A program made the translations under genes and the position numbers. Positions 2,305 to 22,302 of a stretch of DNA of 64,000 bases are shown piece after piece; position 1 is the first letter of the stretch; every line of letters starts with the position of its first letter. The stretch is from NCBI RefSeq assembly GCF_000246985.2, contig NC_022084.1, positions 305,994-369,993 on the forward strand. The letters are read 5' to 3'. The notes under the pieces were generated by a model, which had not been told where the DNA came from, ran no database searches, and saw only the letters and a program-made list of their open reading frames with translations. The DNA comes from Thermococcus litoralis DSM 5473. Lineage in GTDB: Archaea > Methanobacteriota_B > Thermococci > Thermococcales > Thermococcaceae.

Positions 2305-2613
2305 TTAAACTTGGAAATCATCAGGAAGTAGAGATGCTAATACTTCAGCTAATCGTTCTGGATTAGAGAGAACATATACAAGAATCTTTTCGATTAATGC
2401 AGACTTTGGGCAGTCGATCCCACTATTCTGTAAATTAGCACAGAGATAATGAATGAACTCCTCTACAGGCTCGGAGAGAGCAACTGTAATAGGAACTTGG
2501 CCGTACAATTCTAGTTTGTCCTTGTTTTTTAGAAAATTTTTATAAACAACCTCGAAATTCACAAGCAATTCTTCGAGACGTTGCACGATATTTTCTTTTT
2601 TAGCGCTTGGCAT
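2305..2613 (-). CDS. 102-residue hypothetical protein, last gene of the methylase/helicase operon
   Basis: This small acidic, mostly helical protein begins 12 bases after the helicase stop, preceded by a purine-rich GGGAG, so it is almost certainly co-transcribed. No signal peptide, membrane span or known motif is visible. The C-terminal half (residues about 50-100) looks like a compact helical domain rich in Leu and Glu. It could be an accessory or immunity subunit of the cassette; nothing in the sequence shows which. I do not recognise a family. Confidence 0.75.
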   Translation of the reverse strand: MPSAKKENIVQRLEELLVNFEVVYKNFLKNKDKLELYGQVPITVALSEPVEEFIHYLCANLQNSGIDCPKSALIEKILVYVLSNPERLAEVLASLLPDDFQV

Positions 2614-2625
2614 CTCCCGCCCCCA

Positions 2626-5559
2626 TCACATGGAAACGCCAATAACATACCTCCGCTTTTCATCTACCTTGAAATCTACCCGAGTAGTGATGTCTACTTC
2701 AAGACCATCTTTCAAGAGGAATACTCTTCTCTCCGCCCCATCGAAAAGATTGTGAATTCTCAAAATCACGGGCTTTGTCTTGATGTTAGCAACGAGATAA
2801 AGGACATAATCCTCTTTGTGTTGTTCTGCAAACTCCTTTTCCTTTTCGGTCAACTCAGCAAATAGTATCAGAGGACCATGCCCCTTCACTTCAATGTACT
2901 TCTCCTTCCGGACACCATTCTCAGTCCACCAAACATAAACATCATAATGCTCCCTCAAGGAAACATCCTCAACATCCCACAATTTGCCCCTGCTATCAGC
3001 ACCGAACTTCCTCGCGAGCCTCTCAGCCTCAAGGTTCATTACAATATCCATAGCCTTCTTCTCCATTCTGAATATCTCCTCCGTGGGCACAAAATTCCTC
3101 TCAAGTACCAGCAAGTCCTTGTCCCTCGGGGCAGCTATTTTTTCTTTATCCAAACCCAGAATGTCTAACAACCCGACAGGCACAACCTTGTAGAGGTTAA
3201 ACTCTTCGCGAGGAACATATTCCAAAACAGTGCCAAGTTCCACATCAACGTAAACCTCTCTAAAGAGCCGCCCCTGTTTTAAAGAACCCAACTGGCTTTC
3301 ATATGACTCCAAGTATTTTCTGACTATGGTAGAGTAGAATGTCTCCCTCCCAATTTTCTTCACAAGCCCCTCCATGCCGAAGGGCAATTCTTTCTGCCTC
3401 GGTTTAGGAGCAGGGAGGACTTCTCCGGAGAACAATTCCATCAGGTATTTAAAGACTTCAAAGCCCTTTTTCTTTACTACGGGCTTTCCATTCTCGATAC
3501 TCACTATTACTGGAAACCTGTACAACACATTTCCACTTGTATCCCTCAAGGCTACGAAGTACAAGTACTCCCGTTGTGGAACGTCAGAGGCTATAAACAA
3601 TCTCGGAGGGATTACTCCTCCTTTGTCCACAAATATAATCCTCAAAATGTTTTCATACTTTTTTGCGAGCTCCTCGATCTTGTCTTGTTTCAAATATTTC
3701 TCGTCAAAGAGTAGCTTTGAAAGCTCTTGGCGAATTTCCTCGGATTTTGCTGTTGGAAATACTTGGTTTCGCTCTAGTGCATTTTTCAAACTAGCTATAG
3801 TCCTAACTAGTGCCTCCGTATAGCTACCCAACTGCTTCTTTAGAGATGCGTAGATTAGATCATACTCTGAAACTTTCTTCCCTTTTTCATCCACTAGGTA
3901 AACATACTCTTCAAATTGTAGAGTGTCAAATATAGCACCAGTGCCCTCTTGAATATTCATTATTTTTGAATACAAGTTCTGTAAAACATCTCGATCCCCG
4001 CTTGTTGATAGGAACATAATATACGCCGTAGTTTCTCTTTCCTGTCCTAAACGCCAGACTCTTCCAATTCGTTGTTCAAGTTTAATTGGACTCCACGGAG
4101 CCTCATAGTTTATAACAACACTTGCCACTTGGAGGTTCAAACCCTCACTTGCCACATCAGTAGAAATTAAAACCATCGCATCCCTTTTTAGCCTCTCATT
4201 AATCTCTGAAAAGTCTCCTTTGTCCTTTCCAGAAATCGTGAGAATCTCGTCGTCCCTCAAATAAATCCCGTTCTCACGAAGGTATTTTGGCAATGCCTCC
4301 TTCAAGTGTTCAAGAGTATCAACATATTCGGTAAATACTACAACCTTCTCTCCATTTTTCAAGTGAGTGGCAATTATATTTGCTAGGGCTTTGACTTTGC
4401 TATCTTTCCCAGAGACCTTGTAGCCCAGTCTGATTATCTCTTCCAGGCTTTTCCTTTGACTTGTACTCAGTGCCCCCGAATATTTCTCGAGGATCGAATA
4501 AACAATGTTGTCAATTTCGTCCTCATATTCTTCGAGCTCGATCTCATCAAAACTCATGGCAAAAAGTTTGCTCAGATAATTGTTAATTTCATCTTGCGAG
4601 TACCTTGGGGGCTCGCTTGCAGTTCCCACGATTTTTGTTAAAGTCTTCAATGCTGCTTGGATACTCGAAGAAGCCCTTTTCCTCAAAAGAACAGCCAAGA
4701 GGGCTTGCACTGAGTATTTTTCTGAATCCCTAACCATTTCTTCCAAAACGCCTTCGAGTTTTTCATAGTATTCCTTCTCTTCAGGGTCAACATCCACGAC
4801 TACTGCCCTGAACTCGCAGCCTTTGAAAATTTCTTTGCCTTCTAGATTGTTAACTATCCTCTTTGTCCTCCTAAACAGGATTGTATCGTGGGTTCTTTTA
4901 TAGAACCCGGGCTTGTGAAGTTTTCCGTAGTCTTCAACGAGGGTTGGATCGATCAAGCGAAGTCTCGCAAGATAGTCTTTTGGATCCCCGCGGTGGGGTG
5001 TTGCGGATAGCAATAGTAGGTGTCTCTCTTTTTTCTCCGCGAGTTTTCTCACGAGTTCATACCTTTGCGTGCCAAGGGTTACGTTATGAGCCTCATCTAC
5101 AATCACGAGATCCCAGTCCACGTCAAGTATTTTTCTAGCGTGTTCAGTTCTTTTAGCGAGGTCTATTGAGATTATAATGTATTTTCCATTTGAGAAGCGC
5201 AACTCTCTCTCAAGGTCTGCACCGCTCTTTACAACCCGTGGAATTCCACCCACTCTTTTAACTTCAGACTCCCACTGCTTCAAAAGAATCTTGGGCACTA
5301 AAACAAGTATTCTTTTAACCTCGCCTCTCAGTTCAAGGTATCTCGCGATTGCCAAGGCTTCTATTGTTTTCCCCAAACCAATTTCATCTCCAATCAAAAG
5401 CCTCACGGGTCTAGTCATGACCGCATGATAAAGAAGGTGTATCTGGTGCAAGAAGGGCTTGATTTCCACGCCTGGATACCTATTCAGGGAATAGAAGAAA
5501 AGAGGAGGGGTCCCTAATACAACTTCTCGAAGCAATGCGTTCTTTGTTTCCTCGCTCAC
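2626..5559 (-). CDS. SNF2-type DNA helicase/translocase with C-terminal DUF3883-like domain
   Basis: The 977-residue SF2 protein has Walker A near residue 61 (GDEIGLGKT), DEAH near 155, the SATPH motif near 188 and the SNF2 motif VI QRIGRVWRLGQ near 500. A long middle region follows. A C-terminal domain around residues 870-960 contains YDVYVWW and KYIEVKG, which fits a DUF3883 (NOV C-terminal) domain with a PD-(D/E)XK-like D...EVK core. Related SNF2-DUF3883 proteins occur in DISARM-type and other phage-defence cassettes. The start is GTG, overlapping the stop of the 158-residue gene (GTGA). Likely role: ATP-driven translocation on, and possibly cleavage of, unmodified DNA. The nuclease activity is inferred, not shown. 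Confidence 0.88.
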   Translation of the reverse strand: MSEETKNALLREVVLGTPPLFFYSLNRYPGVEIKPFLHQIHLLYHAVMTRPVRLLIGDEIGLGKTIEALAIARYLELRGEVKRILVLVPKILLKQWESEVKRVGGIPRVVKSGADLERELRFSNGKYIIISIDLAKRTEHARKILDVDWDLVIVDEAHNVTLGTQRYELVRKLAEKKERHLLLLSATPHRGDPKDYLARLRLIDPTLVEDYGKLHKPGFYKRTHDTILFRRTKRIVNNLEGKEIFKGCEFRAVVVDVDPEEKEYYEKLEGVLEEMVRDSEKYSVQALLAVLLRKRASSSIQAALKTLTKIVGTASEPPRYSQDEINNYLSKLFAMSFDEIELEEYEDEIDNIVYSILEKYSGALSTSQRKSLEEIIRLGYKVSGKDSKVKALANIIATHLKNGEKVVVFTEYVDTLEHLKEALPKYLRENGIYLRDDEILTISGKDKGDFSEINERLKRDAMVLISTDVASEGLNLQVASVVINYEAPWSPIKLEQRIGRVWRLGQERETTAYIMFLSTSGDRDVLQNLYSKIMNIQEGTGAIFDTLQFEEYVYLVDEKGKKVSEYDLIYASLKKQLGSYTEALVRTIASLKNALERNQVFPTAKSEEIRQELSKLLFDEKYLKQDKIEELAKKYENILRIIFVDKGGVIPPRLFIASDVPQREYLYFVALRDTSGNVLYRFPVIVSIENGKPVVKKKGFEVFKYLMELFSGEVLPAPKPRQKELPFGMEGLVKKIGRETFYSTIVRKYLESYESQLGSLKQGRLFREVYVDVELGTVLEYVPREEFNLYKVVPVGLLDILGLDKEKIAAPRDKDLLVLERNFVPTEEIFRMEKKAMDIVMNLEAERLARKFGADSRGKLWDVEDVSLREHYDVYVWWTENGVRKEKYIEVKGHGPLILFAELTEKEKEFAEQHKEDYVLYLVANIKTKPVILRIHNLFDGAERRVFLLKDGLEVDITTRVDFKVDEKRRYVIGVSM

Positions 5560-6032
5560 TTCTGTATCACCCCTTCAACTTCAAGGAATAGCCGAGCCAG
5601 GTGCAATAGTTTCCTTCTATCCTCATGCTCCCACCAAGCATTCTTGAAAGTGGCTGCCCAGTAGCGTAGTGCAATTGGCTCCATCTGCAAAACATGATCT
5701 TCCAATCTGGCCCATTCTGAGGGTTTTCTGAGCACCTGCATGCCCATAGCATACAGGTATAGTCTGAGGTATGCGTAATCGTCTTGCCCGACTAGTGTTA
5801 GTCTCTTTTTGCCCTTTACTTCAAAGCCGAGTCTCTTTGCGAACTCTATGAACTCGGGTAAAAATATTCTGGCGACTCCTTCCGATTTTGCCTTCACGTA
5901 CTCGACGCCCTTTGAGGTCCTCAGCGGTACTATGGGGATAAACTCCGCGAGCTTGTGTTCGCGCTTTACTGGGGTTTGCACGGGCCTTGCATACTTTATT
6001 TTTATCATGTACTTGTTCTTGAGCTCCTCCAT
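5556..6032 (-). CDS. 158-residue unknown protein between DUF499 ATPase and SNF2 helicase
   Basis: The start ATG at 6032 lies 3 bases after the DUF499 stop, with a GGAGGGATGA ribosome site. The end overlaps the helicase start by 4 nt. The N-terminal third is basic. The C-terminal half is rich in aromatic residues (WARLEDHV, RYWAATFKNAWWEHED) and predicted helical. I do not recognise a family. Its fixed place in a tightly overlapped operon suggests an obligatory small subunit, perhaps bridging the ATPase and helicase. That is inference. Confidence 0.85.
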   Translation of the reverse strand: MEELKNKYMIKIKYARPVQTPVKREHKLAEFIPIVPLRTSKGVEYVKAKSEGVARIFLPEFIEFAKRLGFEVKGKKRLTLVGQDDYAYLRLYLYAMGMQVLRKPSEWARLEDHVLQMEPIALRYWAATFKNAWWEHEDRRKLLHLARLFLEVEGVIQK

Positions 6033-6035
6033 GCT

Positions 6036-9000
6036 TCATCCCTCCTTTTTGATCTTGAAAATGGCTTTTCTTGCCAGCGGCCGTAGTGCTTCAACCCACC
6101 ACTCGTCAATAGTGATCTCCTCCAATGGTTCGATGTCAATTTTTGTGCTAACTTCAAGGTTGAGAAGTGGTTTGAAGTCTTTCACGGGCTTGATGAGCTC
6201 TCTGAGCAAAGCTACGTCGAGATTTCTAAATGTAGCCTCATACTCATACGGTTCTGCGATTTCAACGTGTCCCGTTGCGATTCCTTCTAATGTTTCTGGG
6301 ATCCTTTCAAAGTCTTCAAGCGTTGATATATTCTTTATCTCAAGCAGCTTGCTTCCAATGTGTTCTTTTGTTATCTCAGGAACCTCAACCACGTCGGTTC
6401 TTGGGATCAGGGTGACTTCATCGGACTTTGAAAGCCCATCCGCCCTCACGGTTATTCTATAACGCCTCTTCTCTTTTGGAATTTCGAGCGTCCATGTTGT
6501 GCTAAACGGCACTTTACCACCTGTGGATTCAAGTTCTCCCTCTTCAACTTCTAATTCAACCTCAAACTCTTCTCCGCCCGTCAATGGGGTTACTTCTACT
6601 CTAATTTCTGCCAGGCTTCCCGGTTTTCCTTCAACTGACTTTGGATATAGTTTTACCAAAAAGTCTCTCTCCTCCTCGATGAGTATCTCCTCATATTTCC
6701 TCACAATATATCCGTAAAGCAGCGACTCATAATTGTCCTCTTTGATCCTATATCTCTCCCCTTCTTTCTCAACTAAATCTCTGAGCAATCGTGGTTCTGA
6801 AGTGGGCGTTTCATACACTTCAAACCATACTTTAATGAGTTTGTTGCCACGTACTTCTTCCTTTTCTTCAGGTAGGATGCTATTTATTTGCTCTTCAAGC
6901 GCCTCGCGAGCTGGAATAATTAGATCACCATCTCTGATGGAATCGATTTCGCCCCTCTCCTCGTGTAATGGCGGGCGTTCATTGTAAATTCTCTTGAATA
7001 TTACCCTGTCTCCCCTCTTGATACCGATTTTTAGGTTCACTACTCCATCTTTTATTGCGTCTTTCAGCTTCGAATCCTCCACCATTGGGAGCCTTGTGTT
7101 GGATTTAATTATCCTTCTCAGTTCTTCAAAAAGAATTCTCCTTCTTTCGAGGTTTATGTTGGCTTTGTCTTTTAGATATCTTGAAAGCCCATCGAAATTA
7201 ATATCCGTCTCAATCTTTCTAGCCTGAACAAGTGCGTCGTACACGTTTTGCACGATTGACTTCGATGCTGGGGATGCGTTGGTTGTTGAAACATCATCGT
7301 CCTCCGGATATGCAACAACGCCAAAAGCCTCTACTGAAGATTCTTCTAAATTCCCTAGGGCGGTTTCTTGAGTCCTCCTTGCTATGCTTGTTTGTACTTC
7401 TATGATCTGCTTTCTTTCAAGAGGATCCCTTCCATAATTTCCATATTTGACTTTAATTTCCTCTTTGACCTCATCACAAGCGATAATTTCTGCAGTATAG
7501 TCCATGAGCTTCTCAAGAGAGCCATTTTTCATATATGCAACCACGGTCGTGTTCTTGTACGTTTTTGTTCCCGTGCCTGACTTGTACAGGATATTCCTCA
7601 GAACATCCTTGCTCACAAAGTTTTCCTCTTTTAACAGTATTAGGAGCTTGTAATCCTCCGAGTCCACCAACTCCTCCTGCACTTCCCTGGTAACTATAAT
7701 GTTTTTCTCACTAAAGAAAGGTATTTTATGATCACTTCTCTTTCTACCTGTTACACTGCCCTTGAACACCATTTTCTCTATGTAATCCTCAAGTCTTGCG
7801 AGAACTTCTCCTTTACGCGATTCAAGTATTTCTTTTTTCTTTGAGTTAATCATTTCCCGCACGTTAGCTATGCGCCAAAACCAGAAACGACCATCATCGC
7901 TAGTGTTTAGGTAAATAAACTTTCCGGCTTTTGTTAACAGGCCAACCACATCTGCAATATCAGTTGGAAGCCATCCTTCTTTTTCGAACAGGTTGTGCTC
8001 ATATACCGCCTTTGCGATTGTCTGTCTTGTTGGGAACACTGGAAGCGGAGTTGGTTGGTCATAGGGGAATGTCTTCAAGAATATGTATGTGACTATTATC
8101 TTCCCAAGCTCCCCCTTCAACTCTTTTCCAAAGTTAGAATCCGCGAGGTCTTGGTCAACAACAACTCCATAACTGCTAAAGTCTATTTCAACATCAGACT
8201 TTCTTGCGAAAAATGAACCCCTAATGCGGTTGTCCTTGAGAGGAATGTGGTAGGGCATTATCAAGGAAGGTGCAAAGCCTGTCTCTTCGTATTGCCTCAC
8301 TAAATTCCTAACCACAATTCTAGTTATTCTGACCATATCCCTCGTCTTTTGCAAGCCAACCCTCTCAATGATGGTTCTCAAAACCGAGATGTACTCCGGA
8401 TGGAATGGATACGTATTCTGAATATCATTAATAACATCTGAAGCCATTCCAAAAACTTCCTCGTTGGACGTATAAACATCCCTGTAAATCGAGATTACTT
8501 CATCCTTTCCTTTTATAGTTTTGAATATCTTCTTTTTCAGAACTTCGGCAATTTCTCCGCCAGCTGGGCCTTCGGTACGAAGGGGAGAGAACGTTGCGTG
8601 CCCCGCGGACCTTGATAATCCTTGCCAGAGTGAAATTACAACTTCGTTATCATACTCTTTTTCAACTTTCAGGCTTTCACTGACCGGTAGAGTCACCACA
8701 AGGGCTGTGTTGCTCCCATAAATCGCAGTCGCCAAGACATCAAAAAACATTGCTCCATTCTTGGCATATCTCCTATCTCTCTCGTTGTCGCTGTTCTTTA
8801 AATGGCTGAAGTGGTGGGCGATCTCATCCACTAATAGGAGGACTTTTTTGTCCTCAAAGAGCTTTCTAATCGTGCTCACAGCAGGGACTGTCAAGTTATC
8901 ATCGTCGGCCCTAACTAAATAATACTTGCCAAGAACGTGGCCAAGGTATCCCCACACCGTCTGAACCTTGTATGCCCCAAAATCGAGAGGATTGCTTGGC

Positions 9001-9431
9001 TGTCCAATGTTCTCTTTTCCATAGATTACGACAATCTCGACGCTGGCATTCTCGAGCCTCTCAGCGATTGCCTTTATTCTCTGCACCTTCTCCTCGGGAT
9101 AACCTGCCAGAACTTCATCGTCTAGTAGTGCCTCAGGATTTCTAAACGCGTGGTAGAGTGCCAGCAATGTGTGGGTTTTACCACCACCAAAGAGAGAATA
9201 AACAAGATACACATTCTGTTTGGACTTGCCCTCGAAAGTATCAAGCAGCCTCTCGAAAATGTCGAGCATCGAGTCTGTGAAGTACGTCCTTCTAAAGAAC
9301 TCTACTGGGTCTGAGTAAATGTATGGAGACTGCCCAGTCACAACGTCGCCGATTTCGGGAGCAACTTGGCCGTCAAGACTCTCATCCATAACGTCCTCTC
9401 TAACTTCAAGAAACTGCCCCAACTTGGTCAT
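6036..9431 (-). CDS. Giant DUF499-type P-loop ATPase (BrxC/PglY-like)
   Basis: The 1131-residue protein shows Walker A near residue 82 (FGGGKTHTL) and Walker B near 200 (VLLLVDEIAHHF), the pattern of DUF499 ATPases (COG1483). These are distant relatives of the BREX ATPases BrxC/PglY. The middle is a long helical region with wHTH-like segments. Near residues 955-1010 a beta-rich Ig-like stretch is visible, with paired LTGGEEFEVEL and RRYRITVRADG strands. The start overlaps the methylase stop by 4 nt. DUF499 ATPases recur beside DUF1156 methylases in predicted anti-virus cassettes (established association). The exact biochemical role is not known to me. Confidence 0.88.
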   Translation of the reverse strand: MTKLGQFLEVREDVMDESLDGQVAPEIGDVVTGQSPYIYSDPVEFFRRTYFTDSMLDIFERLLDTFEGKSKQNVYLVYSLFGGGKTHTLLALYHAFRNPEALLDDEVLAGYPEEKVQRIKAIAERLENASVEIVVIYGKENIGQPSNPLDFGAYKVQTVWGYLGHVLGKYYLVRADDDNLTVPAVSTIRKLFEDKKVLLLVDEIAHHFSHLKNSDNERDRRYAKNGAMFFDVLATAIYGSNTALVVTLPVSESLKVEKEYDNEVVISLWQGLSRSAGHATFSPLRTEGPAGGEIAEVLKKKIFKTIKGKDEVISIYRDVYTSNEEVFGMASDVINDIQNTYPFHPEYISVLRTIIERVGLQKTRDMVRITRIVVRNLVRQYEETGFAPSLIMPYHIPLKDNRIRGSFFARKSDVEIDFSSYGVVVDQDLADSNFGKELKGELGKIIVTYIFLKTFPYDQPTPLPVFPTRQTIAKAVYEHNLFEKEGWLPTDIADVVGLLTKAGKFIYLNTSDDGRFWFWRIANVREMINSKKKEILESRKGEVLARLEDYIEKMVFKGSVTGRKRSDHKIPFFSEKNIIVTREVQEELVDSEDYKLLILLKEENFVSKDVLRNILYKSGTGTKTYKNTTVVAYMKNGSLEKLMDYTAEIIACDEVKEEIKVKYGNYGRDPLERKQIIEVQTSIARRTQETALGNLEESSVEAFGVVAYPEDDDVSTTNASPASKSIVQNVYDALVQARKIETDINFDGLSRYLKDKANINLERRRILFEELRRIIKSNTRLPMVEDSKLKDAIKDGVVNLKIGIKRGDRVIFKRIYNERPPLHEERGEIDSIRDGDLIIPAREALEEQINSILPEEKEEVRGNKLIKVWFEVYETPTSEPRLLRDLVEKEGERYRIKEDNYESLLYGYIVRKYEEILIEEERDFLVKLYPKSVEGKPGSLAEIRVEVTPLTGGEEFEVELEVEEGELESTGGKVPFSTTWTLEIPKEKRRYRITVRADGLSKSDEVTLIPRTDVVEVPEITKEHIGSKLLEIKNISTLEDFERIPETLEGIATGHVEIAEPYEYEATFRNLDVALLRELIKPVKDFKPLLNLEVSTKIDIEPLEEITIDEWWVEALRPLARKAIFKIKKEG

Positions 9432-12400
9432 ACAACAACACCCCCCGATAAAATACCCACGAGCCTATTAATTAAATAAAGCTCCAACAGTCCTTTGTCC
9501 TTCAATTCTCTTTCATATTCCCTAACGTCGCCCCCGAGCACTCTCCTGTAATACCTGTGTATCAAGAATGCCATGTTAATGGCTTCCTCAACTTCGGCTG
9601 GGGCTTTGGACTTCAATTCTTCAAGGATCCGGCTGAACTCCTCTTTTGGCAGGATGTATGCGTAGTACTCGAGCAAGTGCAATGCATCTACTGACGTCCT
9701 GATCTTGGGGTCTTTCATATTGATTCCCCGCTCGGAGAGAAGGGCTTGAATATCATATGGTTTGGGCAGTTCATTCTTTTTGGCTATCAAATCAACCGTG
9801 TAGAGTGTAAATTCTTTCTTGTCGGAACTACCGGTCTCTTTTAATACCGCAAGCCCTTTCTTCTTCTGTGATGCTGTAATCTTGTCTATATCAACACCCG
9901 TTGCAAGCCTCAGTAGCACGATGTCATTGGGGCTCAAACTCCTGCTACCAAAGAGTATCTTGTACGCAGTGTAGAATACACCATAATTCGATGAAACACT
10001 CCTTCCAGATTCACCCGTTGCAATAGCGTTTATTATGCTCAAAATTGTCGATGGGTACACGTACTTTTCTAGGAGCTCTTTTGTAGATATGCTGCCAGTG
10101 GACCCATAGACTTCCTCGTACTTCGTGACTTCTTCAAGGATACCGGCCATTGTTCCATACAACAAATCAAGCTCTTGATAACCGTGATCGATTAGCACTC
10201 TCGCGGTCTCCTCTCCTTTCACCCTCATCTTTTGGAGAAGATCCCTGATTGAGATTTCCCTCTCCTTCCGTTCAACATTTTTCCATACTGCGACGATTGA
10301 GGTATCTAGAGATAGCTTGCCCCTGCTGACTATATTAGTCTCTGACTCTGTCGTTAATGGAATCGCCCTCGTTATCTGGAGCCCAGCCCTCTTCCACCCA
10401 GCCTCTAAAAGGTTCGCCCACGAAGCCGGGTCGGTGTGGGCATAATACGTAACGATCAGCCCATCCTCTTTCAGGTGCTTTTTCATTGAGACAAAGGCTT
10501 GGCTAAAGAGATCTTCAAAGTGCTTCTCCGCCACTTCCTTCTTGTTTTCTTGATCCATGAATCTCCCCGGGTTCGTTGAGACTTCCTTCTTTGCGAATTC
10601 TTGCCACTGAGTAGGAATTTCTCTAAAGATACTCTTGCCCCCGATCTTTATCTCCTTGAAGAACGCTTTCTTGTGGAACCTCGGGACTAGCTTGCCGTTC
10701 TCAACGTCGCTCAAAGCCCTCTTCAGCCACACGTAGTAAAAGTCGCTCAGTTCAGTGTAGGGGACATCGTCGGCGTAGGGTGGATCCGTTACGATGACGT
10801 CGAACTTCTCGCCGAGGTTGAGCGAGGTCGCGTCGCCCTGGAGAACTCTGATGGAGTTGCCCGCGAAGTCCGCAAGGGTTCTTTGGGATGAAGAGAGGGT
10901 AGAAGTGAGATATTCAAGACCTCTCAGAATCGCAGGGAACGTTTTGATTATCCCTCCAAAATTACCGAACCAAGGACTTTCCGTCCAGTTCCAGTTCATT
11001 GCAATTCCACGTGTTGACATCGTCTCCCCAATTTTCCACCAAGTTGAATCCCAGCGAGTAACAATTGAATTGTAGTATGCATACTTCAACATTGCTATGC
11101 TCAAATACGTCGCCACGGCCTCCGCGTACTCGAAGGCTTTCTCTTTATCCCAGCCTTCCTTGAGCTTCTCTTCCTCAACGCGCTTCCCGACCTCGCGGAT
11201 GAGTTTTACAATTTTTATCAGCGTCAAGAGCTGGCGGGGGTTGAAGAACTGATACCATTTTTCTGCACTGAGTATTGGAGTAATACGACGGTTCTCGTAA
11301 AGAGGTATCGGTTCAGTCGGCACGTCAGGGTCTTTCTTTTCGAGCATTTCTTTGACCTTCTCCTTCGCCTTCAAGAGCTTCTCGTTGTCCTCTTCTGTGG
11401 CAGGCTCAAAGACTAAATCTCCATCTATTACCTTCACTCTAACGAGGATTCTCTGCCTCGCGAACCTCTCATCACCCTCGTGGTATTTTCTCAAAGCCCA
11501 CTTTACGTAGAAGTCAAAGTCATTCTTGTCCCCTCCCTTGGGCTTGGCAAGGTAATGATTGCCCTCACTATCGGCATATTTCACAAGGTTTCCACAGTAA
11601 AGACATGCCATTTGGTTCTTTTTTGCCTCAATGTTCGGCTTTGGAACCTCAAAGATCACTCTGTTACCTTCAACCCTAGCGATGTCGCTATCAAGCTCCC
11701 CGTTTTGGATCATTTGCTGAATTTCCTTCGCGGTTTTCTCGTCCTCAAAAATTATCTTGCCTGTGTTAGTGTTTACTTTTGCTTTTGAGACATCGCCCAC
11801 GATTTTGTTCAAGTCTATGATTTCAATCTCGATTTCATCTCCATTTTTCTTTGGCTTCATATATGCCAAACGCTGGTACTTGCCCTTGCTGTCTTTTACT
11901 CTTGCCAGCCAGTAGTTGCCGATTATCGGAGTCCACCTTCCACAGTGAGGGCACTTGGCTTCCCACGTGCCGATGTAAACGGCAACGTCATCATCGTAAA
12001 GCTCCCTGATTTCAGGGTCGTTCTTCAACTGTTCGGTAATCCAGTTGCCCCACTTTTCAACATCCTTCACGAGGGGTTTTCTAAACTTCTTGGGGTAATC
12101 GAGGACGGCTTTGAGAAAGACGTATGCTGTTGGTAATAGTTCAACGGCAGTAACGTCGAGACCAAGCCTCAGACCTTCGAGTGGAATTGATCCAAAACCT
12201 GCGAAGGGGTCGAGAAGTTTTTTCCCTCTGAAGTATTTCTCCCATTCTGGTGGGATTTTCGGGTTAACACGGTGGGGAGTCTTCTCATTGAGACCTATGG
12301 CTGTTTTGAATCTTTTGGGGTCTGTATTGTACGGGAGGAAGGCTCCGGTGATTACTCCTCTCGCACCGATTAGAGGTTTTCGTGTCCACCAGAATACCAT

Positions 12401-12499
12401 TTCCCAATATGGGGGTCTTCCGGGGCCTTTCTCTTTTTTACTGGCATCATTTATTTCTTTTGCTGGAAAGTCAGGGTTTTCAATAAAATACATATGCAT
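9428..12499 (-). CDS. DUF1156 adenine-type DNA methylase with zinc ribbons
   Basis: The 1023-residue protein opens with a DUF1156-like segment (GRPPYWEMVFWW, residues about 25-40). Motif I lies near residue 98 (LDPFAGFGSIP) and the catalytic DPPY near 572. That DPPY signature is typical of N6-adenine or N4-cytosine amino-methylases. The roughly 470 residues between them contain CPHCGRW and CLYCGNL half-ribbons. The C-terminal part is helical. ATG 12499 follows an AGGAGGGTG ribosome site, and a TTTATAATG TATA box sits about 35 bases upstream, so this is the first gene of the operon. Expected role: modifying host DNA at a specific site to mark it as self. Confidence 0.9.
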   Translation of the reverse strand: MHMYFIENPDFPAKEINDASKKEKGPGRPPYWEMVFWWTRKPLIGARGVITGAFLPYNTDPKRFKTAIGLNEKTPHRVNPKIPPEWEKYFRGKKLLDPFAGFGSIPLEGLRLGLDVTAVELLPTAYVFLKAVLDYPKKFRKPLVKDVEKWGNWITEQLKNDPEIRELYDDDVAVYIGTWEAKCPHCGRWTPIIGNYWLARVKDSKGKYQRLAYMKPKKNGDEIEIEIIDLNKIVGDVSKAKVNTNTGKIIFEDEKTAKEIQQMIQNGELDSDIARVEGNRVIFEVPKPNIEAKKNQMACLYCGNLVKYADSEGNHYLAKPKGGDKNDFDFYVKWALRKYHEGDERFARQRILVRVKVIDGDLVFEPATEEDNEKLLKAKEKVKEMLEKKDPDVPTEPIPLYENRRITPILSAEKWYQFFNPRQLLTLIKIVKLIREVGKRVEEEKLKEGWDKEKAFEYAEAVATYLSIAMLKYAYYNSIVTRWDSTWWKIGETMSTRGIAMNWNWTESPWFGNFGGIIKTFPAILRGLEYLTSTLSSSQRTLADFAGNSIRVLQGDATSLNLGEKFDVIVTDPPYADDVPYTELSDFYYVWLKRALSDVENGKLVPRFHKKAFFKEIKIGGKSIFREIPTQWQEFAKKEVSTNPGRFMDQENKKEVAEKHFEDLFSQAFVSMKKHLKEDGLIVTYYAHTDPASWANLLEAGWKRAGLQITRAIPLTTESETNIVSRGKLSLDTSIVAVWKNVERKEREISIRDLLQKMRVKGEETARVLIDHGYQELDLLYGTMAGILEEVTKYEEVYGSTGSISTKELLEKYVYPSTILSIINAIATGESGRSVSSNYGVFYTAYKILFGSRSLSPNDIVLLRLATGVDIDKITASQKKKGLAVLKETGSSDKKEFTLYTVDLIAKKNELPKPYDIQALLSERGINMKDPKIRTSVDALHLLEYYAYILPKEEFSRILEELKSKAPAEVEEAINMAFLIHRYYRRVLGGDVREYERELKDKGLLELYLINRLVGILSGGVVV

Positions 12500-12545
12500 A
12501 GTTACACCCTCCTATAGTATTCTATTAAAGAACATTATAAACCCT
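12500..12545 (-). promoter_or_regulatory. Promoter and ribosome site of the methylase-helicase operon
   Basis: On the minus strand, GGGTTTATAATG (about 12533-12544) has BRE/TATA character. A start about 25 bases downstream would leave a leader of about a dozen bases that holds the strong AGGAGGGTG ribosome site before ATG 12499. All five downstream genes are spaced by -4 to +12 bases with no other TATA box obvious, so this probably drives the whole cassette. Confidence 0.6.
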
Positions 12546-12596
12546 TCGTGGTTCTTGTGTCGCATATCAACCATTTTTTAGAAAGGGTTTTATTTG

Positions 12597-13082
12597 ATGG
12601 AGGGCATAATTAATACACCAATCATGGAGGGGATGCCTGTGGAAGATGTTGTTGGTGCAACGTTTCCCGTTCCAAAAAGCTTTTTGGAAAGAATCCTAGA
12701 TGGGAAGAAGGATGTCTTTGTAAAGCCTGCTACACTAACTAAACTGAAGAAGGGTATGAAGATTGTATTTTATGCTTCTCGTGAGGATCAGGGTTTTCAT
12801 GGGGAAGCAGAGGTAGAGAGTGTAGAGGTGTTTGATAACCCTCTAAAAATTCTGGAAAGATATGGGGATAGGTTATTTCTGACTGAGAAGGAGTTCAAGG
12901 AGTATGTTGCTTCTCAGAAGCGTTGGGGTCGGGAAAGACACAAGCCGTGGATGGCTATTGTGCTGAGAAATATTAGGAGGTATCCCAGGGTTGTAAAACC
13001 AAAGAGATTTGTAGCAGTATCTGGAAGATATGTGAGAGGGCAAGAATACGAGTGGATTCTGAAGAATGCTGGTGTTTTATAG
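12597..13082 (+). CDS. DUF365 family protein, divergent from the methylase operon
   Basis: This protein of about 161 residues carries GATFPVPKSFLERIL, then LKKGMKIVFYASREDQG with a beta-rich GEAEVESVEV, then a basic C-terminus. The pattern matches archaeal DUF365, whose layout resembles the ASCH/PUA/EVE nucleic-acid-reader fold (family knowledge plus inference). An ATG at 12624 in front of EGMPVEDVV is an alternative start. TTG at 12594 precedes the ATG and is less likely. There is no clear ribosome site, so a leaderless transcript is possible. Divergent placement against a DNA methylase suggests, without proof, a modified-base sensor or regulator. Confidence 0.75.
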   Translation: MEGIINTPIMEGMPVEDVVGATFPVPKSFLERILDGKKDVFVKPATLTKLKKGMKIVFYASREDQGFHGEAEVESVEVFDNPLKILERYGDRLFLTEKEFKEYVASQKRWGRERHKPWMAIVLRNIRRYPRVVKPKRFVAVSGRYVRGQEYEWILKNAGVL

Positions 13083-13146
13083 CTAAATGTTTTGAAATAA
13101 CTTTGTCTTTGCTTTTCTTTAGCATCTGTTTCTTTAGGGGGTGATG

Positions 13147-13293
13147 TCTCCACTCTCGGACCCCCACCTGCTCACCAAATATGCAGTGTTTTGGAGCACT
13201 ATTTCCACTCTCGAACCTCCGGGGGTTAATTACTACTATATTGGGTCGACTCACTACTACTGGGTTGTGGCTTTCCACTCTCTAACCCCCACC
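13147..13293. repeat. Three imperfect copies of a ~22-bp repeat (CRISPR-remnant-like)
   Basis: Copies begin at about 13147, 13201 and 13271 with a shared TCCACTCTC core followed by C-rich AACCCCCACC-type sequence. On the minus strand each ends with AGAGTGGAAA or AGAGTGGAGA. The third copy ends GTGGAAAG, the same eight bases that end a common Thermococcales CRISPR repeat. Spacing is irregular (about 55 and 70 bp) and only three copies exist. A decayed array or another dispersed repeat are both possible. No cas gene is in the window. Confidence 0.35.
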
Positions 13294-14000
13294 TTTCTTG
13301 TGAGTTGCCTTGTTTTGGGTTTTTTCTTTTTGTTTTTTAAAAGTCTGCCTGAATTCTCATTGTATTGGATCAACAAAATAAAATTCTAGCTCAAAATTTT
13401 AAAAGAAGTTATGTATATACCAGACTTTTAAATAAAGCAGAGTTAATTCTCTTGTGCCCGTGTAAAGGGAAATGTTGCTCTAAAGAAAGAGTCAGAGCTG
13501 GAAGATTGCCAAAGAGTTCAAGAAGAGGGGAGATAAAAAAGGAATAGGGAGAAAGAATATAATGCGCATGCATATCTGAGTGAAGGGAAAAATAGGTTTT
13601 CCTTGTCTCTTTCTGTTATGTTATATGAGAAGTTTCTCACATATAAATCATTGACACATAAAGGAAATTATTGACAAGTTGACAATGAGTATTTCGCTAT
13701 TTAGGGGAGAATTACAAACAAGGAATGATAGTGTGGACTAGCTCTGAGAAGTGTTTTATGATATTACATTGCCCTCCCTCAAAAATGAATCACAAAAAGA
13801 ATCGTTAGAGTCACATGTTCAAACTAATTCAAAAAAATTAAAAAGAAAAGGAACCACCAAAAACAAAATTCTAAATGGATTACAAATTCATGCTGAACTA
13901 TCGCATGGCGTGTCACCAATTGTAACAGTACCTGATGAAAAATTAAAGGTGACTAATTATTGTCATAAAAAGGTAAAATAAAAGGAGACACGTATGGAAA
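13294..14000. other. Gene-poor accessory DNA
   Basis: AT-rich DNA follows the repeat cluster. A frame of 76 codons at 13751-13981 and one of 60 codons at 13365-13547 exist, but neither shows a ribosome site, family motif or convincing composition. I see no RNA gene. The stretch is probably degraded mobile or defence DNA. Confidence 0.5.
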
Positions 14001-14201
14001 TCAAATTTCTGCAGTTAACAATCCATAATACATCCTTTTTAACATTTCTAGCTCTTCTTCTAATTTTTCAACCTTTTTTAGATCTTGGTACGAGTTCAGG
14101 GATAATTTTCTCCTTGAAAGTTCTGTTTCGAGCTCCTCTATCTTTTGTTTTACTTTCCACTCTAACATCTGGATCACCCATGAATGTGGGTTATCAAACA
14201 A
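14001..14201 (-). CDS. Small coiled-coil protein (up to 66 residues)
   Basis: The frame is dominated by Leu, Glu and Lys in heptad-like spacing (KIEELETELSRRK, VEKLEEELEMLKR), typical of a short coiled coil. The listed start is TTG at 14201. ATG at 14168 follows GGGTGATC, a near-perfect anti-16S match though only three bases away, and would give 55 residues. A 130-codon frame on the other strand overlaps it but looks like its shadow. The function is unknown; such proteins often act as small regulators in mobile elements. Confidence 0.4.
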   Translation of the reverse strand: MFDNPHSWVIQMLEWKVKQKIEELETELSRRKLSLNSYQDLKKVEKLEEELEMLKRMYYGLLTAEI

Positions 14202-14687
14202 AAATTAAAACTATCTTGGCTTTGGTGAGTTTAGTGTTTGTCCTCTCGGACGCTTTTCAGAGCCAGCACCCTGGCATTTTAATTAAAATGGAGGTTTTTG
14301 TTTGTTTGTTCAATGCTTGGTCAGTTCTAAATTCTTCATCCGGGAATAGGAGGCATTGGTACGCTTGGTCACATTATAATAAATAAATATACATCAAATA
14401 TACATATACAAGGAAAGGTATTCTTCTAAAGTGTGTTTGGAATTAAAGTATATCTCCGTGTGTTTTTATCTATATCTTTATCTTTTTAGGAGTATTATTG
14501 CGGAATTGGGAGTTTTGAGAATACCAGATCGTGACTAAACTGTACCAAAGCCTACTTTCGCAGAAAAAAGGTTTGTGTGTGTAAAATCATGCAAAAACAG
14601 TAAAAATTGACGATTTTTAAAACTGAATTTAATCACACAGCTAGGATTAATTATTCTCATCTAGTTAACATAGGTTGAGGTAGTGGT
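14202..14687. other. Intergenic DNA upstream of the wHTH/P-loop gene
   Basis: About 490 bases of AT-rich sequence. The right end must carry the promoter of the next gene, whose ribosome site is GAGGTAGTGGT. Repetitive ATATACAT words lie at about 14385-14410. No gene or structured RNA is evident. Confidence 0.5.
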
Positions 14688-15779
14688 ATGAGTAGGGAGG
14701 ACATAAAGTCAAAAATCATGTCCTACCTTGAAGAGGTGAAGTTAGCAACTAGGAACGAGATCTCCAAGCAAACTGGGATTACTGGGCGAGTTTTGACTCA
14801 AGCATTGAAAGAACTCGTTGATAAAGGTTATTTAGAAGTTGTTTCAAAAAATCCCCTCACATACAAATTCGTAGAAAAAAACTATGTCGAACTGGATTTC
14901 TCTAAAATTCGGGATTATTACAACCTAAAATACACTATCGCAAAAATCCTGAAAAATCACGGATGGAGATTATCAAAACATGAGATTGCAGCAGTTGCAT
15001 TGATATATTCGAAGTTTACTGGATTCAAAACACTAGTTTTTGGAAGCCAGGCGGTTGGGAAAACCTCAATAATTAGGAGTGTTTTTCAGGGAGTGAAAGA
15101 ACCTGTAATTCTTCAGGATCTGCATTTAAAGGACCTTTATGATGTAGTAGGCAGTATAAAAGAGAATACGAAAGTTATCGAACAACAATACAGGCACAAG
15201 TGGGGAAGAGAAACTCTTGAGAGATACGATGCATATAAAGTAGTCCCCCTGTCTCGTATTGGGCCTGCAGAGTTAATTTTTCGTTTTATCCCTGTTAGAA
15301 TAATACAGCCAAAAGGTAAACCAGAAAGACTGTTTGAGCAGGTGTACTTTGAGTTCTTGAATATTCCAAGAATTATTAATCCCCCTGAAGATGCTATAGA
15401 AGCACTTTACGAAGAGTTGTCACATATTGAGTATTTCACGATAGATACACAACAGCTAGAGGAGGCTCTGAAGAAAATAAAGGTTAATGAGGTCGTAGGT
15501 TTTACGGAGGATGTTACTGCTGAATTTTACCGTATAAACGAAAGATACAAAAAAATTACCCAAAATGACTTTTTCTTGGCAAACTTTAAAGAGTTCAAAG
15601 GCTGGGACTCACTTTATAACAAAATGAGTGATAATCTGCAAATAATTAACAATGCTCTAGAAGTGCTAAAATTTAACTTTTCATGGCTGCAAGAAAAGGA
15701 CGCGGCGGTAGAGCAGACGGTGGATTTCTTTAAAGATGTTTTCGAAACATTCACAATAGTTAAAAAAGAAAAATTGTAG
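14688..15779 (+). CDS. wHTH protein with P-loop (363 residues), unknown role
   Basis: Residues about 1-65 form a winged helix-turn-helix (ATRNEISKQTGITGRVLTQAL, KGYLEVV). A P-loop follows at about 118-126 (GSQAVGKTS). The expected Walker B acidic strand is not clear: PVILQDLHLKDLYD is the nearest candidate. The C-terminal 150 residues are helical. No family is recognised. Combining DNA binding with a nucleotide switch suggests a regulator or replication/partition protein of the accessory element, by inference. It stands alone on the plus strand between the defence operon and rmuC. Confidence 0.75.
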   Translation: MSREDIKSKIMSYLEEVKLATRNEISKQTGITGRVLTQALKELVDKGYLEVVSKNPLTYKFVEKNYVELDFSKIRDYYNLKYTIAKILKNHGWRLSKHEIAAVALIYSKFTGFKTLVFGSQAVGKTSIIRSVFQGVKEPVILQDLHLKDLYDVVGSIKENTKVIEQQYRHKWGRETLERYDAYKVVPLSRIGPAELIFRFIPVRIIQPKGKPERLFEQVYFEFLNIPRIINPPEDAIEALYEELSHIEYFTIDTQQLEEALKKIKVNEVVGFTEDVTAEFYRINERYKKITQNDFFLANFKEFKGWDSLYNKMSDNLQIINNALEVLKFNFSWLQEKDAAVEQTVDFFKDVFETFTIVKKEKL

Positions 15780-15860
15780 GTATTTTTCTTGCTCCTTTCA
15801 TTTGATCTGTCTTCTAAACTGTGAACATTCTCTTGAAGATTCTTTTTCTCCTGTTAGAGA

Positions 15861-16856
15861 TTATTCTTCTAGCTCGAAGGTAGTGAGCGACGAGTAATAG
15901 GTTTTTAATTCATTAATTGCTTGCTGAACTTTATGAACATTACTATTTGCATTGTTCAAGTGCCTAGTGAGAGTTCCAAATTTATCTTCAAGATCTTTTA
16001 TATAGGTTCCAAGGATGTTTATTTTTCTCTGGACTTCTTCAGCTCTCTTTGATATTTCTTCTGCTTTGATTTTTGTGAGAATCAAACTGATGTGGGCTGG
16101 AAGGAGAGATGGAGAAGTTAATATTACCCCCGATTTTGCGGCTTCAGATACAAGTTCGTGAGCTTCAGAAACAAGCTTGTAATATATCGCATCGGATGGA
16201 ATGAACATAAAAGCAAAGTCCATGGTATTCTCTTTTCCAACATATTTTTCTTTTATTGCCCGTACGTGGTTGTTAACATCCTTTAAAAAGTTCTTCCAAA
16301 ATTCTTCTTTTTTACTTGGGCTTTCTTCTTCAGTGTATTTTTTGAAATTTTCTAGTGGGAACTTTGAATCAATGCAAAGATACTTGTTTTCATCAACAAT
16401 GATGTAGGCATCAGGAATTTCGCGTCCAATGCTTTTTCGAATTCCTAGCCTCTGGGAGGGAATTATGTCTTTTAATATAGCCTCTAGCTGTAATTCTCCG
16501 AATTTTGCTCTCGCACTTTTTATTTCAAACATGGACTTTAGATCAGAAGTTATTTTTTTCAGGTCTCCTGAAGCTTCTTTCAACTTCCCTAGGTCTTCTT
16601 GGATTCCAAGCTCTTTTAGAGACTCTGCAAAAGCTCCCTTTATCACATTAGTATTTTTTGATATTGCCGAACCAAATACTTTCTCAAAAATATCCGTGGA
16701 GCCTTGGATTGTTTTCATTACTGAATATTCTACCATTTGTGGAAAATTCGTCTCTATCTGCTCCACTTTTGTTTTTAACTCTGTGAGGTGACTACTTTGT
16801 CTCCATAAAAGGAACCCTAGAATCAAAACAAGAATACCTAGCAAGTATTCAATCAT
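15861..16856 (-). CDS. rmuC: RmuC-family DNA recombination protein
   Basis: The protein of about 331 residues starts at ATG 16856 after GGGGGTGG; a GTG at 16877 is less favoured. It has an N-terminal membrane anchor (residues 1-18), a coiled coil, then the RmuC core: FGELQLEAIL, the PD-(D/E)XK-like IPDAYIIVDENKYLCIDSKFP, MDFAFMFIPSDAIYY, and a C-terminal coiled coil. RmuC limits DNA inversions and is a predicted nuclease. Archaeal copies are sporadic and often lie in mobile regions. The membrane anchor would place the nuclease at the cell membrane. Confidence 0.85.
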   Translation of the reverse strand: MIEYLLGILVLILGFLLWRQSSHLTELKTKVEQIETNFPQMVEYSVMKTIQGSTDIFEKVFGSAISKNTNVIKGAFAESLKELGIQEDLGKLKEASGDLKKITSDLKSMFEIKSARAKFGELQLEAILKDIIPSQRLGIRKSIGREIPDAYIIVDENKYLCIDSKFPLENFKKYTEEESPSKKEEFWKNFLKDVNNHVRAIKEKYVGKENTMDFAFMFIPSDAIYYKLVSEAHELVSEAAKSGVILTSPSLLPAHISLILTKIKAEEISKRAEEVQRKINILGTYIKDLEDKFGTLTRHLNNANSNVHKVQQAINELKTYYSSLTTFELEE

Positions 16857-17139
16857 GAATCCACCCCCAAATAGCACTTGCTCATATCATTTGTTCTATA
16901 ATAATGCCCAATGCTTTATTTAGTTTATTCTGATGCTCTCGCACCAGTACCAATATAGATTTTGTTCAATATGTTCATTTGAGATTTCTGCGAATGGAGC
17001 TTTCTTTTAGAAACCAAAAATAATGCAAGTGTTTCCTACTCATCACTTGAATAGTCGCCGAAAGGAGATTGTAAAATTAAAAGCTTTTCCGCAAATTTTT
17101 ATATTTTTACATCCTACTTTATTATTTTGAGGGGTGTGA

Positions 17140-18261
17140 ATGGAGGTTGTTGGACCAGAGGTAATCCAGGGAGGATATGTTGTTAGGGTTAGTATGAGGC
17201 CTAAAAGAGAGATTTACGTATTCTCCGAGGAGGATATAGAGTACTATATCCGGAACGAGATTTTAGAGAAAAATATTAGCGAAAAACAGAAAAAGAAAAA
17301 AGAAAAGTGGATATGGGAGTTTTTAGGAGAGTTACCAAAAAGAAATAACGAATATTACCTTTCTATAAATGAAATTGAGAAATATTTGAAAAAACTTGAA
17401 AAAATGAAACTAAAACCGCGCACTATGATAAAAAGAGTTAGACAACTAAAGAATTTTCTGCATCACTTTGATCCTTCAATAAAAGAATTTGACGATATAA
17501 TTGATAGGAAACTCGAGGAGCTTTCCAAGACGATTAATGCTGAAACGCGGCTGAAAGGGGTTACAGTATACAAAGACCATGTCACTGAATTCCTGAGAAG
17601 GCTGGAAAGACTCTATGAAGAGAGAAAAGTAACGGAGTACACGTACCAGAAGGCAGTAGCTTTTGTCCTTTTGGGAGTTTCAACTGGGAGGAGAGTAGAA
17701 GAAATTTCGGGCATGAAAGTAGAATGGCTAAACTTGGAGGAAGGATACATCATCCTACCCCTAAAGTACACAAAAGAAGGAAAAATATTAGGGGTCAAGG
17801 ATGGTTACAAGAGAATACCTCTGACAGAAGAAACGGTCGCTTGGTTAAAATTTTTCCTCAAAAAATACGGAAAATTTATCCAAGAAAAAAGAGATGGATA
17901 CCTTTTCTCATCCCCTGAAAGGAAAGCAGGAAATCCAATATTTTTACATAAACTAACAAAAAAGTTCAAGAAAGAGCTGAAATTCGACATTGGAGGTGCG
18001 CAATTCGAAATCAAGTACCTGCGAAAATTTTTTTCGCAGGAATGGGAGAGAAGGGGTGGAAACCTATATGTAAAATTTGAGCTAATGGGGCATTCCCCTC
18101 GAAACATAAACTATCTCCACTATACTAGATTAGGTTGGAAAGAAATCAACGAAGAATATCGCCGTGTATACTACAATCTCTCTGTTCTCACCCCAGATCA
18201 ACGAAAATTAATAGCAAAATATCTGTCAAGGAAAAAAAGAAAAAGGAAGAAAGGGAAATGA
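17140..18261 (+). CDS. Tyrosine recombinase (archaeal integrase)
   Basis: The 373-residue protein has a lysine-rich N-terminal half with a core-binding region and a C-terminal catalytic domain. Visible catalytic parts are Arg near 185 (STGRRVEE), the KxxR box near 295 (IKYLRKFFSQEW), GHS near 316 and LHY near 327. The same KFFSQEW and MGHS blocks occur in the second integrase 2-4 kb away, so the two are related. The C-terminus is extremely basic (RKKRKRKKGK). The ribosome site GGGGTGTGA fits ATG 17140. No tRNA fragment is seen inside or beside this gene. Confidence 0.88.
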   Translation: MEVVGPEVIQGGYVVRVSMRPKREIYVFSEEDIEYYIRNEILEKNISEKQKKKKEKWIWEFLGELPKRNNEYYLSINEIEKYLKKLEKMKLKPRTMIKRVRQLKNFLHHFDPSIKEFDDIIDRKLEELSKTINAETRLKGVTVYKDHVTEFLRRLERLYEERKVTEYTYQKAVAFVLLGVSTGRRVEEISGMKVEWLNLEEGYIILPLKYTKEGKILGVKDGYKRIPLTEETVAWLKFFLKKYGKFIQEKRDGYLFSSPERKAGNPIFLHKLTKKFKKELKFDIGGAQFEIKYLRKFFSQEWERRGGNLYVKFELMGHSPRNINYLHYTRLGWKEINEEYRRVYYNLSVLTPDQRKLIAKYLSRKKRKRKKGK

Positions 18262-18373
18262 GAAAAATGGCCTCAAAAACATTTCTTGTCCTTTAACATG
18301 CTTTTCAAACATGTGACAATAAACACTAGCTTGTTTGCTAGATTCGTGATTTGTTATGATTGCTCCGGCACTT

Positions 18374-19270
18374 CTAGTCAAATTGGGTTAAAGTATAGTT
18401 GCGTAACTTCTCCAAGAACTTTCTGAGGTCTTCCGTATTAAATGAGACATTCAATAAAAGCAATTCCTCTTCCGGTGTAGTAGCTTCGAGAAATGAAAGT
18501 GATTGTATAACCTCTTGGAGATTAATAGAATATTTTTCAAATTTTAGTGCAAATTGCATCTTCTGGGTTATTTCATCAGTATAATCCTCGATTTTCAAGC
18601 CTGCTTCTTTTTCAAGGTAGTACAAGTCATAAATGTCCCTAAACTTTACTTTCTTTCTAGTTAAAAGCGCCCTAACTTTCTCTGTTAGAATCTCTCGCAA
18701 ATTATATGCCCAGACAGGAATATCAGAATAACTATCAAGGAATTCTGAGAAATATATCCTCTCTTCATCATTCAATTGGATGTCTGAGAGTAGGGATTTA
18801 GCACTAACTCTTTTAGGTTCAAAAAGAAGTTTCTCCACCAAGTTGATTTGAATTTTTATCATTTCCCGCATTACTCCTTCAGGATAATACAGCTTGAAAG
18901 TAATCATCCTTGATCCTCCACCAAATTCCACGTAATTCCTATCTCTCAAATCTGCTTTAAATTCTAGACCCCTTTTACTGGCGATATTTTCAATTAGCCT
19001 TGCAAGTTTTGTAGCTTCAGCCTTGAGTTCCCGTTCTCGGCTTCGTCTTGAAAGTTCCATCCATATTTGAGGAGTTCTACTTGTAAAGTCTAAATCAACA
19101 CTGAAGCGATAGTAACCTATCCCTCCTTTGAAGAGGTAATTTGCTAGAAAAGTACTCATTTGAGTACAATTCTCTCAAAATGGAATGCAGAATAATATCC
19201 TTTCGTATGAGATTTCCCTTTTTAATTCCTGTTTTTGAATTATGAGCTCAACAAATTCCCTTTCGTTCAT
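18374..19270 (-). pseudogene. Decayed AbiEii-type nucleotidyltransferase toxin
   Basis: An intact frame from 19159 gives 261 residues with FKGG, RFSVDLDF and the KVKFRDIYDLYYLEKE block of AbiEii toxins. The real N-terminus starts at ATG 19270, overlapping the antitoxin gene by 23 nt. It reads MNEREFVELIIQK, then shifts frame near an A-run, continues as NLIRKDIILHSILREL, and shifts again at a T-run (TACTTTTC) near 19153. About eight residues also seem missing between FKGG and GYYRFS. At least two indels separate start from core, so the toxin is very probably inactive. Confidence 0.75.
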
Positions 19271-19890
19271 TCTTTAAAACCTCCTTCTGTACACTTCTTG
19301 GATATCTCTCTAGGTAACTGCATAAAATAGCCCAGTTAACCTTGTCTTGGTATTGTGTTAAAACCTCCTCCGCATGTGGTCTGAGCTGTTTGTTGTACCT
19401 TGAGAGATATATAAAGTCCAAGATTGTCTTTTCAGGGTCTGAAAACTTTACTTCGTTACTTTTGATTATTCCAAAAGAAGCTAAAGTTGGTTTTATCTTT
19501 ACGAATTTGACATTCTCTCCAAGAATTTCAATTGTTTTTGACCTGATTACTTTATCATTGAGGACGAAGATTATGTTAAAATATTCGTGAGTCATGCCAT
19601 TGAGTCTCAAGGCTGTAAATAGTCCATAGTACCATGTCAAGTTGAGCTTGTTGAGGCCCTTTGCAATTACTCTAAATACATCAGGCGCTTGTTTTAATCC
19701 AATTTCTTCAATCGTTTTAACGTAATATATGCCCCTGAGAATTCTAATTATATAACCCCTAGATAGCAAGTAATTGACAAAATACTCGATATCAATGTTA
19801 AACTTCTCACTAACCTCTTTTAATTCCTCTTTTGTAATAGCACTGCCCTCAAATTTTGAGAATTATATATCTGATTGCGAGTCGTCTCAT
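19248..19890 (-). pseudogene. AbiEi-type antitoxin, frameshifted near its start
   Basis: The main frame encodes FEGSAITKEELKEV as a winged-helix start, then GYIIRILRGIYYVK and VKFSDPEKTILDFIYLSRY, the AbiEi antitoxin pattern. The natural ATG at 19890 begins MRRLAIRYIILK and runs into a stop. One extra A in an AAAA run near 19850 separates it from the rest. A shorter product from TTG 19769 would lack the DNA-binding part. AbiEi normally neutralises AbiEii and represses its own operon. Confidence 0.7.
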
Positions 19891-19898
19891 GTTTCAAG

Positions 19899-19938
19899 TT
19901 GTTGAACAATCATATAAAAATTATTGGTTGTTCAACAA
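19899..19938. promoter_or_regulatory. Operator with inverted repeats flanking the abiE TATA box
   Basis: TTGTTGAACAA (19899-19909) and TTGTTCAACAA (19928-19938) are exact reverse complements, each nearly palindromic. They flank an 18-base gap that contains a TATA-like ATATAAAAAT on the way to ATG 19890. AbiEi-type antitoxins bind such inverted repeats to repress their own operon (known for the family). The operator is perfect although the genes are damaged. Confidence 0.65.
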
Positions 19939-19988
19939 ATCATGATTCAGTTACTATTAAAAGTTTAAAATAAAATGAGGAGATACCC

Positions 19989-21273: not shown

Positions 21274-21423
21274 AGGTCAAATTCTCTTCTTCTTTGAAAA
21301 TTTTTATGCCAGGTTTTTAGAGCTTACTTGGTCTAAATGTTTCCCCAATGATCCTGAAGAGAGAAAACTGTAATTACCATTATAGCGAAATTCAAATTAG
21401 TGGCTTTCGTCGTGGTGTTCATA

Positions 21424-22281: not shown

Positions 22282-22302
22282 AATACACATGTCTCCCGTT
22301 CT

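Follow-up and report, generated by a model that had tools for sequence, protein, structure and literature searches.

A probable DUF499-centred, BREX-related antiviral cassette with a conserved small subunit in Thermococcus litoralis and other archaea

BREX-related (BR) systems centred on DUF499 were named in 2026 and divided into Types 1 to 3 (PMC12839542). The Type-1 helicase carries a C-terminal PD-(D/E)XK domain and an N-terminal TUDOR domain, Type 2 combines DUF3780 with an HKD helicase, and Type 3 has PglZ and iSTAND (PMC12839542). The gene set itself was described earlier. Passages of PMC12839542 trace the methylase-DUF499-SNF2-nuclease combination to a HEPN survey of 2013, passages of Bell et al. 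2020 describe an archaeal operon of COG1743, DUF499 and SNF2-nuclease genes with EVE proteins and place DUF499 as ORC/Cdc6-like (PMC7641849), and PADLOC has carried these systems under the name Hma since 2021 (PMC8565338). Antiphage activity of relatives is likewise cited in passages of PMC12839542. Because such genes were described in 2013, 2020, 2021 and 2026, the three large genes of the locus analysed here are not of an uncharacterised kind. A preliminary description of this DNA, which had seen in it a little characterised five-part unit, was overtaken in this respect by the accounts of the methylase-DUF499-SNF2-nuclease set in passages of these sources (PMC12839542, PMC8565338, PMC7641849); it was right about the BREX-like kinship and the DUF1156-DUF499 association.

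Gene content and conservation of the cassette

We analysed a cassette of five ORFs in a 64,000-nucleotide stretch of the Thermococcus litoralis genome (the window; Table 1), which lies within one contig of 2,215,172 bases. The ORFs are separated by exactly -4, +3, -4 and +12 bases, and coordinates, spacing and Pfam all agree with the ORFs and domain calls first given for them. A DUF499 ATPase, a DUF1156 N6-methylase and an SNF2 helicase are found together at this one locus, the combination that defines BR systems in general. The nearest gene on the left side (1048-2205) runs convergently to the cassette, which places the end of the operon within the window, where it is complete. The preliminary description had also reported no PglZ, BrxL, DUF1998 or PLD gene at the locus; this holds, and a search of the whole 2.2-Mb genome at E<=1 returned no PglZ.

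Table 1. Features of the cassette and of the adjoining divergent unit (window coordinates)
Feature	Position	Strand	Remark
DUF1156 methylase	9428-12499	minus	1023 aa ORF
DUF499 ATPase	6036-9431	minus	1131 aa ORF
sm158 (158-residue protein)	5556-6032	minus	small core subunit, no family match
SNF2+NOV_C helicase	2626-5559	minus	977 aa, GTG start
102-aa ORF	2305-2613	minus	local add-on, not system component
DUF365 protein, EVE/ASCH superfamily	12594-13082	plus	divergently transcribed from cassette
Intergenic region between cassette and DUF365 units	12500-12593		putative promoters of both divergent units; sequence read

The large proteins retain their active-site motifs. The methylase, with an N-terminal DUF1156 domain (Pfam, 36.6 bits, cut-off 24), is an amino-methyltransferase of the alpha type, with FxGxG at residues 99-103, DPPY at 572-575 and two CxxC pairs (C183/C186 and C299/C302) that form zinc sites, all invariant across 11 diverse relatives. 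It aligns over all 1023 residues with the PADLOC profile MTase_II PDLC03352 (2465 bits), which means that a near-identical methylase had already been catalogued. The DUF499 protein (Pfam, 896 bits) is an ORC/Cdc6-like AAA+ ATPase whose Walker residues, GGGKTH at 82-87 and DE at 202-203, show little or no variation among 11 relatives. The profiles HmaA (188 bits), HmaB (181 bits, methylase) and HmaC (150 bits, DUF499) each match over part of their length, with PADLOC thresholds left aside.

The helicase matches Pfam SNF2/Helicase_C and ends in NOV_C, the current name of DUF3883 (48 bits). Its motifs, DExH among them, and residues D873, E890 and K892 of the tail do not vary among 11 relatives, in keeping with the nuclease-like tail first proposed. 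In a low-confidence model (pLDDT 50 overall, about 55-80 in this part) the elements of the tail follow each other as alpha-beta-beta-beta-alpha-beta, and D and ExK lie on adjacent strands; a fold search with it listed Holliday-junction resolvases, none significantly. Together these features predict a PD-(D/E)XK-like nuclease. Pfam finds no PLD/HKD domain in this helicase. The SNF2 core starts at about residue 44, compared with 120-126 in Type-1 helicases, and, judged by this start position, the roughly 75 residues before the core that hold the TUDOR domain in Type 1 are therefore absent. A BREX or DISARM remnant was considered and rejected, as PglZ, DUF1998 and PLD are missing and the top score of the helicase, to the DrmD equivalog, reaches 272 bits where the cut-off is 610. 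In one relative (L052:4786-7790) the helicase is present as two ORFs with a 4-base overlap between motor and nuclease tail, a gene fission or frameshift.

Four of the five genes form the core of the system. In each of the 19 loci for which the neighbouring genes were read (the window, L050-L062, L070 and L092-L095), methylase, DUF499 ATPase, sm158 and helicase-nuclease follow each other in this order. These loci come from Thermococcales, Methanocaldococcaceae and further archaeal families, and some carry an insertion between methylase and DUF499. By eye, this is an AbiE-like pair in L059 and L060; in L093 it is an archaeal ATPase_2 (tested), with an ORF of the same size in L092. L093 also has type III CRISPR-like genes downstream, again by eye. 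In L063, inspected by eye for PglZ between methylase and DUF499, an AAA-type ATPase ORF stands there instead. Strong matches to sm158 occur in 18 of 396 related genomes, and a 19th (E=0.002) is doubtful; a weak collection-wide scan gave two loci, and the range is that known from the 396 genomes searched. The cassette is patchy, present in 12 of 111 related genomes, and every first-survey genome with this DUF499 clade (12/12) also has sm158.

The preliminary description had treated all five genes as one unit and suggested checking how well its two small proteins of unknown kind are conserved. Neither has a family match, as claimed, and sm158 is kept in 19 of 19 loci, but 111 related genomes contain no homologue of the 102-aa protein, and 17 relatives have no counterpart of it 3' of the helicase. 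With four genes conserved together and the fifth unique to T. litoralis among the genomes searched, we rejected the five-gene unit; by sequence comparison, the 102-aa gene is a local one that the system does not need. By eye, its product, which has no Pfam match, is possibly ribbon-helix-helix-like.

The first reading also missed the divergent DUF365 gene. Its product matches Pfam DUF365 (140 bits) and EVE (14 bits), is related to PDB 2kku and resembles ASCH-like proteins at E=0.01. Of the 14 Thermococcales loci, 10 have DUF365 next to the cassette; it occurs in 19 of 111 genomes, among them 8 of the 12 with a cassette (Fisher p=6e-5). Because of its resemblance to EVE/ASCH proteins, it is likely an accessory reader of modified bases. 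Seven DUF365 genes apart from a cassette were examined: six stand beside an SNF2-type helicase of about 1,130-1,157 aa, with an N-terminal PLD domain in the three tested, and one beside an Eco57I-type methylase. Thermococcales DUF365 genes thus adjoin defence-type genes (window, L121, L122 and L124-L128), and the PLD-SNF2 helicases there often come with an AbiE pair.

Beyond the cassette, window positions 13000-21122 have 35% G+C, compared with 42-47% in the cassette, and hold two tyrosine integrases (17140-18261 and 19989-21122), RmuC and an AbiE pair (18374-19769); this is likely an integrated-element or defence-island region. Further on, an IS605-type TnpB element (22305-23485) splits a CorA-type gene (21400-22304, with its tail near 23709-23822) just after the part that encodes the GMN motif. 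A 363-aa winged-helix/P-loop protein is found near the cassette in two loci (window 14688-15779 and L059:2449-3534, 57% identical); it has no PADLOC match.

The small subunit sm158 and its viral copy

The small protein sm158 is a conserved subunit of the system that had not been listed as a part of it before and is the new element here. It has no match in Pfam, NCBIfam, PDB or Foldseek and no similar solved or viral structure. Across 14 sequences, 26 residues are invariant, and in every copy the gene overlaps or closely abuts both neighbours. The AF2 model (pLDDT 88) has a four-stranded sheet followed by five helices, or in detail four strands, one helix, a pair of short strands and a further four helices. 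The published account of DUF3780 gives it five helices and an antiparallel sheet of four strands (PMC12839542), and the predicted fold of sm158 agrees with that description, which is what it was compared with.

Related DUF499 systems have DUF3780 or DUF7680 directly behind DUF499, and sm158, DUF7680 and DUF3780 probably share this one slot. Aligned with DUF7680, an sm158 profile that includes two divergent members outscores every one of 100 column shuffles (E=0.012), and the two divergent members alone reach E=0.001; the main set without them gives no significant match. Very distant common ancestry with DUF7680, as distinct from family membership, is thus possible at the sequence level. Against DUF3780 the sm158 profile is not significant, with 46 of 100 shuffles scoring as high. 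We rejected the idea that sm158 can be recognised as DUF3780 or DUF7680, as the protein has no Pfam match and the profile signal is weak; Pfam DUF7680 has no match in the T. litoralis genome even at E=10. In systems with a PLD-type helicase, either DUF7680 or a similarly sized unnamed protein lies directly behind DUF499 (L097, L101 and L104, tested; same slot in L105-L108, L115 and L116). None of the papers searched mentions DUF7680.

Viruses also encode sm158. An IMG/VR contig (L072:7403-7867) has an intact 154-residue sm158, 56% identical to the L055 copy, and a related viral contig (L096:2-115) has one truncated at the contig end. L072 is a tailed-virus contig with genes for a terminase, a Holliday-junction resolvase, a RecT-like protein, a helicase and a DNA-methylase, and sm158 is the sole cassette gene found on it. 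In the tree the viral branch sits, moderately supported, among the copies from Thermococcus. No sm158 was found on plasmids or in the named phages searched, a viral scan for DUF3780 found none, and the short CRISPR spacer matches examined for a tie between L072 and a Thermococcales host lay in no repeat array. A stand-alone subunit of the system in a virus suggests a decoy, and the viral sm158 may possibly be a counter-defence protein of this kind or may have a different viral use.

Lineage and proposed working

Maximum-likelihood trees were built with our own typed reference systems (Type-1/HEPN, DUF3780, DUF7680 and PglZ). In the DUF499, methylase and helicase trees alike, the sm158-bearing group forms one clade with 100/100 support, apart from the Type-1-, DUF3780- and DUF7680-type systems. 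On this reference set, as distinct from the published BR tree, the sm158-bearing systems are a candidate fourth BR lineage in sequence terms.

The trees bear on two other assignments. The cassette could be a plain Type-1 BR (Hma) system in which sm158 is a passenger, conserved yet not needed: its helicases form the sister clade of the Type-1 helicases, which share the NOV_C tail, and there is weak support (81/83) for the methylases as the sister clade of Type 1. We consider this unlikely, given the presence of sm158 in every copy, tightly packed between its neighbours and rich in invariant residues, the long stem branches of DUF499 and methylase (1.0 and 1.4 changes per site) and the stretch before the SNF2 core that Type-1 helicases have and these lack. 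Even less probable is a divergent branch of Type 2, in which sm158 would be a DUF3780 beyond sequence recognition and the HKD nuclease would have been swapped for NOV_C. The shared slot, the same described fold and the lack, in both, of the N-terminal TUDOR of Type 1 would fit such a branch; the shuffle test gives no DUF3780 sequence signal, none of the three trees groups the cassette with the DUF3780 set, and the gene order differs, with the methylase first here.

We therefore regard the cassette as most likely a DUF499-centred, BREX-related antiviral system of the restriction-modification kind, from a separate archaeal lineage with a four-gene core. From gene content, order, conservation, intact motifs, the separate clade and the fold prediction, we infer defence activity, an order of events and a role for sm158. 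The DUF1156 methylase would mark an amino base in a host recognition sequence, and the ORC/Cdc6-like ATPase would load on DNA with sm158, in the place held by DUF3780 or DUF7680 in related systems, as a small adaptor or reader subunit and check whether the mark is present. Where viral DNA lacks it, DUF499 would recruit or activate the SNF2 motor, and the PD-(D/E)XK tail would cut. DUF365, which accompanies most but not all copies, would probably add modified-base recognition.

The ORC/Cdc6-like nature of DUF499 (PMC7641849) would also suit a modification-dependent restriction system, or an epigenetic one, that mainly serves a purpose other than virus defence, such as replication or gene control through the ATPase. 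This is very improbable in view of the conserved nuclease tail, the patchy spread, which is as for defence genes, the neighbouring AbiE pair (with the similar pair in L059/L060 and the type III CRISPR-like genes of L093, both by eye) and the antiphage activity of relatives cited in passages of PMC12839542. An extension of the antiviral reading, which we put forward as a tentative idea, is that in a fourth BR lineage sm158 is a dedicated subunit which licenses or reads target DNA on behalf of the ORC-like ATPase, and that tailed viruses counter it with a stand-alone sm158 decoy.

With the cassette, a family with an unexplained recognition step gains a conserved subunit and a distinct lineage in archaea. 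It also raises the possibility that sm158, DUF7680 and DUF3780, the small proteins encoded behind DUF499, fill a single functional slot. Since Thermococcales include genetically tractable strains, the role of sm158 and the effect of the viral copy are directly testable.

Comparison with known systems

BREX type 3 and DISARM share a methylase and an SNF2 helicase with the cassette, and BREX also a BrxC-like ATPase, but the cassette lacks PglZ, BrxL, DrmA/B and DrmC. The genome-wide absence of PglZ likewise sets it apart from Type-3 BR and BREX. Type-1 BR (Hma) has the same DUF1156 N6-methylase, DUF499 ATPase and SNF2 helicase with C-terminal PD-(D/E)XK (NOV_C). It differs in having three core genes, whereas here sm158 is an extra one, the helicase has no N-terminal extension, HEPN is absent, all three large proteins form a separate clade and the order is methylase-DUF499-sm158-helicase. 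Type-2 BR (DUF499-DUF3780-DUF1156-HKD helicase) also has one small alpha+beta protein directly behind DUF499; the nuclease here is NOV_C, with no HKD/PLD, and sm158 has no detectable sequence relation to DUF3780. The systems of haloarchaea, Aminobacter, Nostoc and Rhodococcus with the order DUF499-DUF7680-DUF1156-PLD-type helicase differ in that helicase and form their own clade, but carry a small protein in the same slot with a weak profile match to sm158. The archaeal system of Bell et al. 2020 (PMC7641849), whose describing passages do not mention the small protein and whose reader is an EVE protein where the one here is a divergent DUF365, is very probably the same class of locus, with a modified-base reader.
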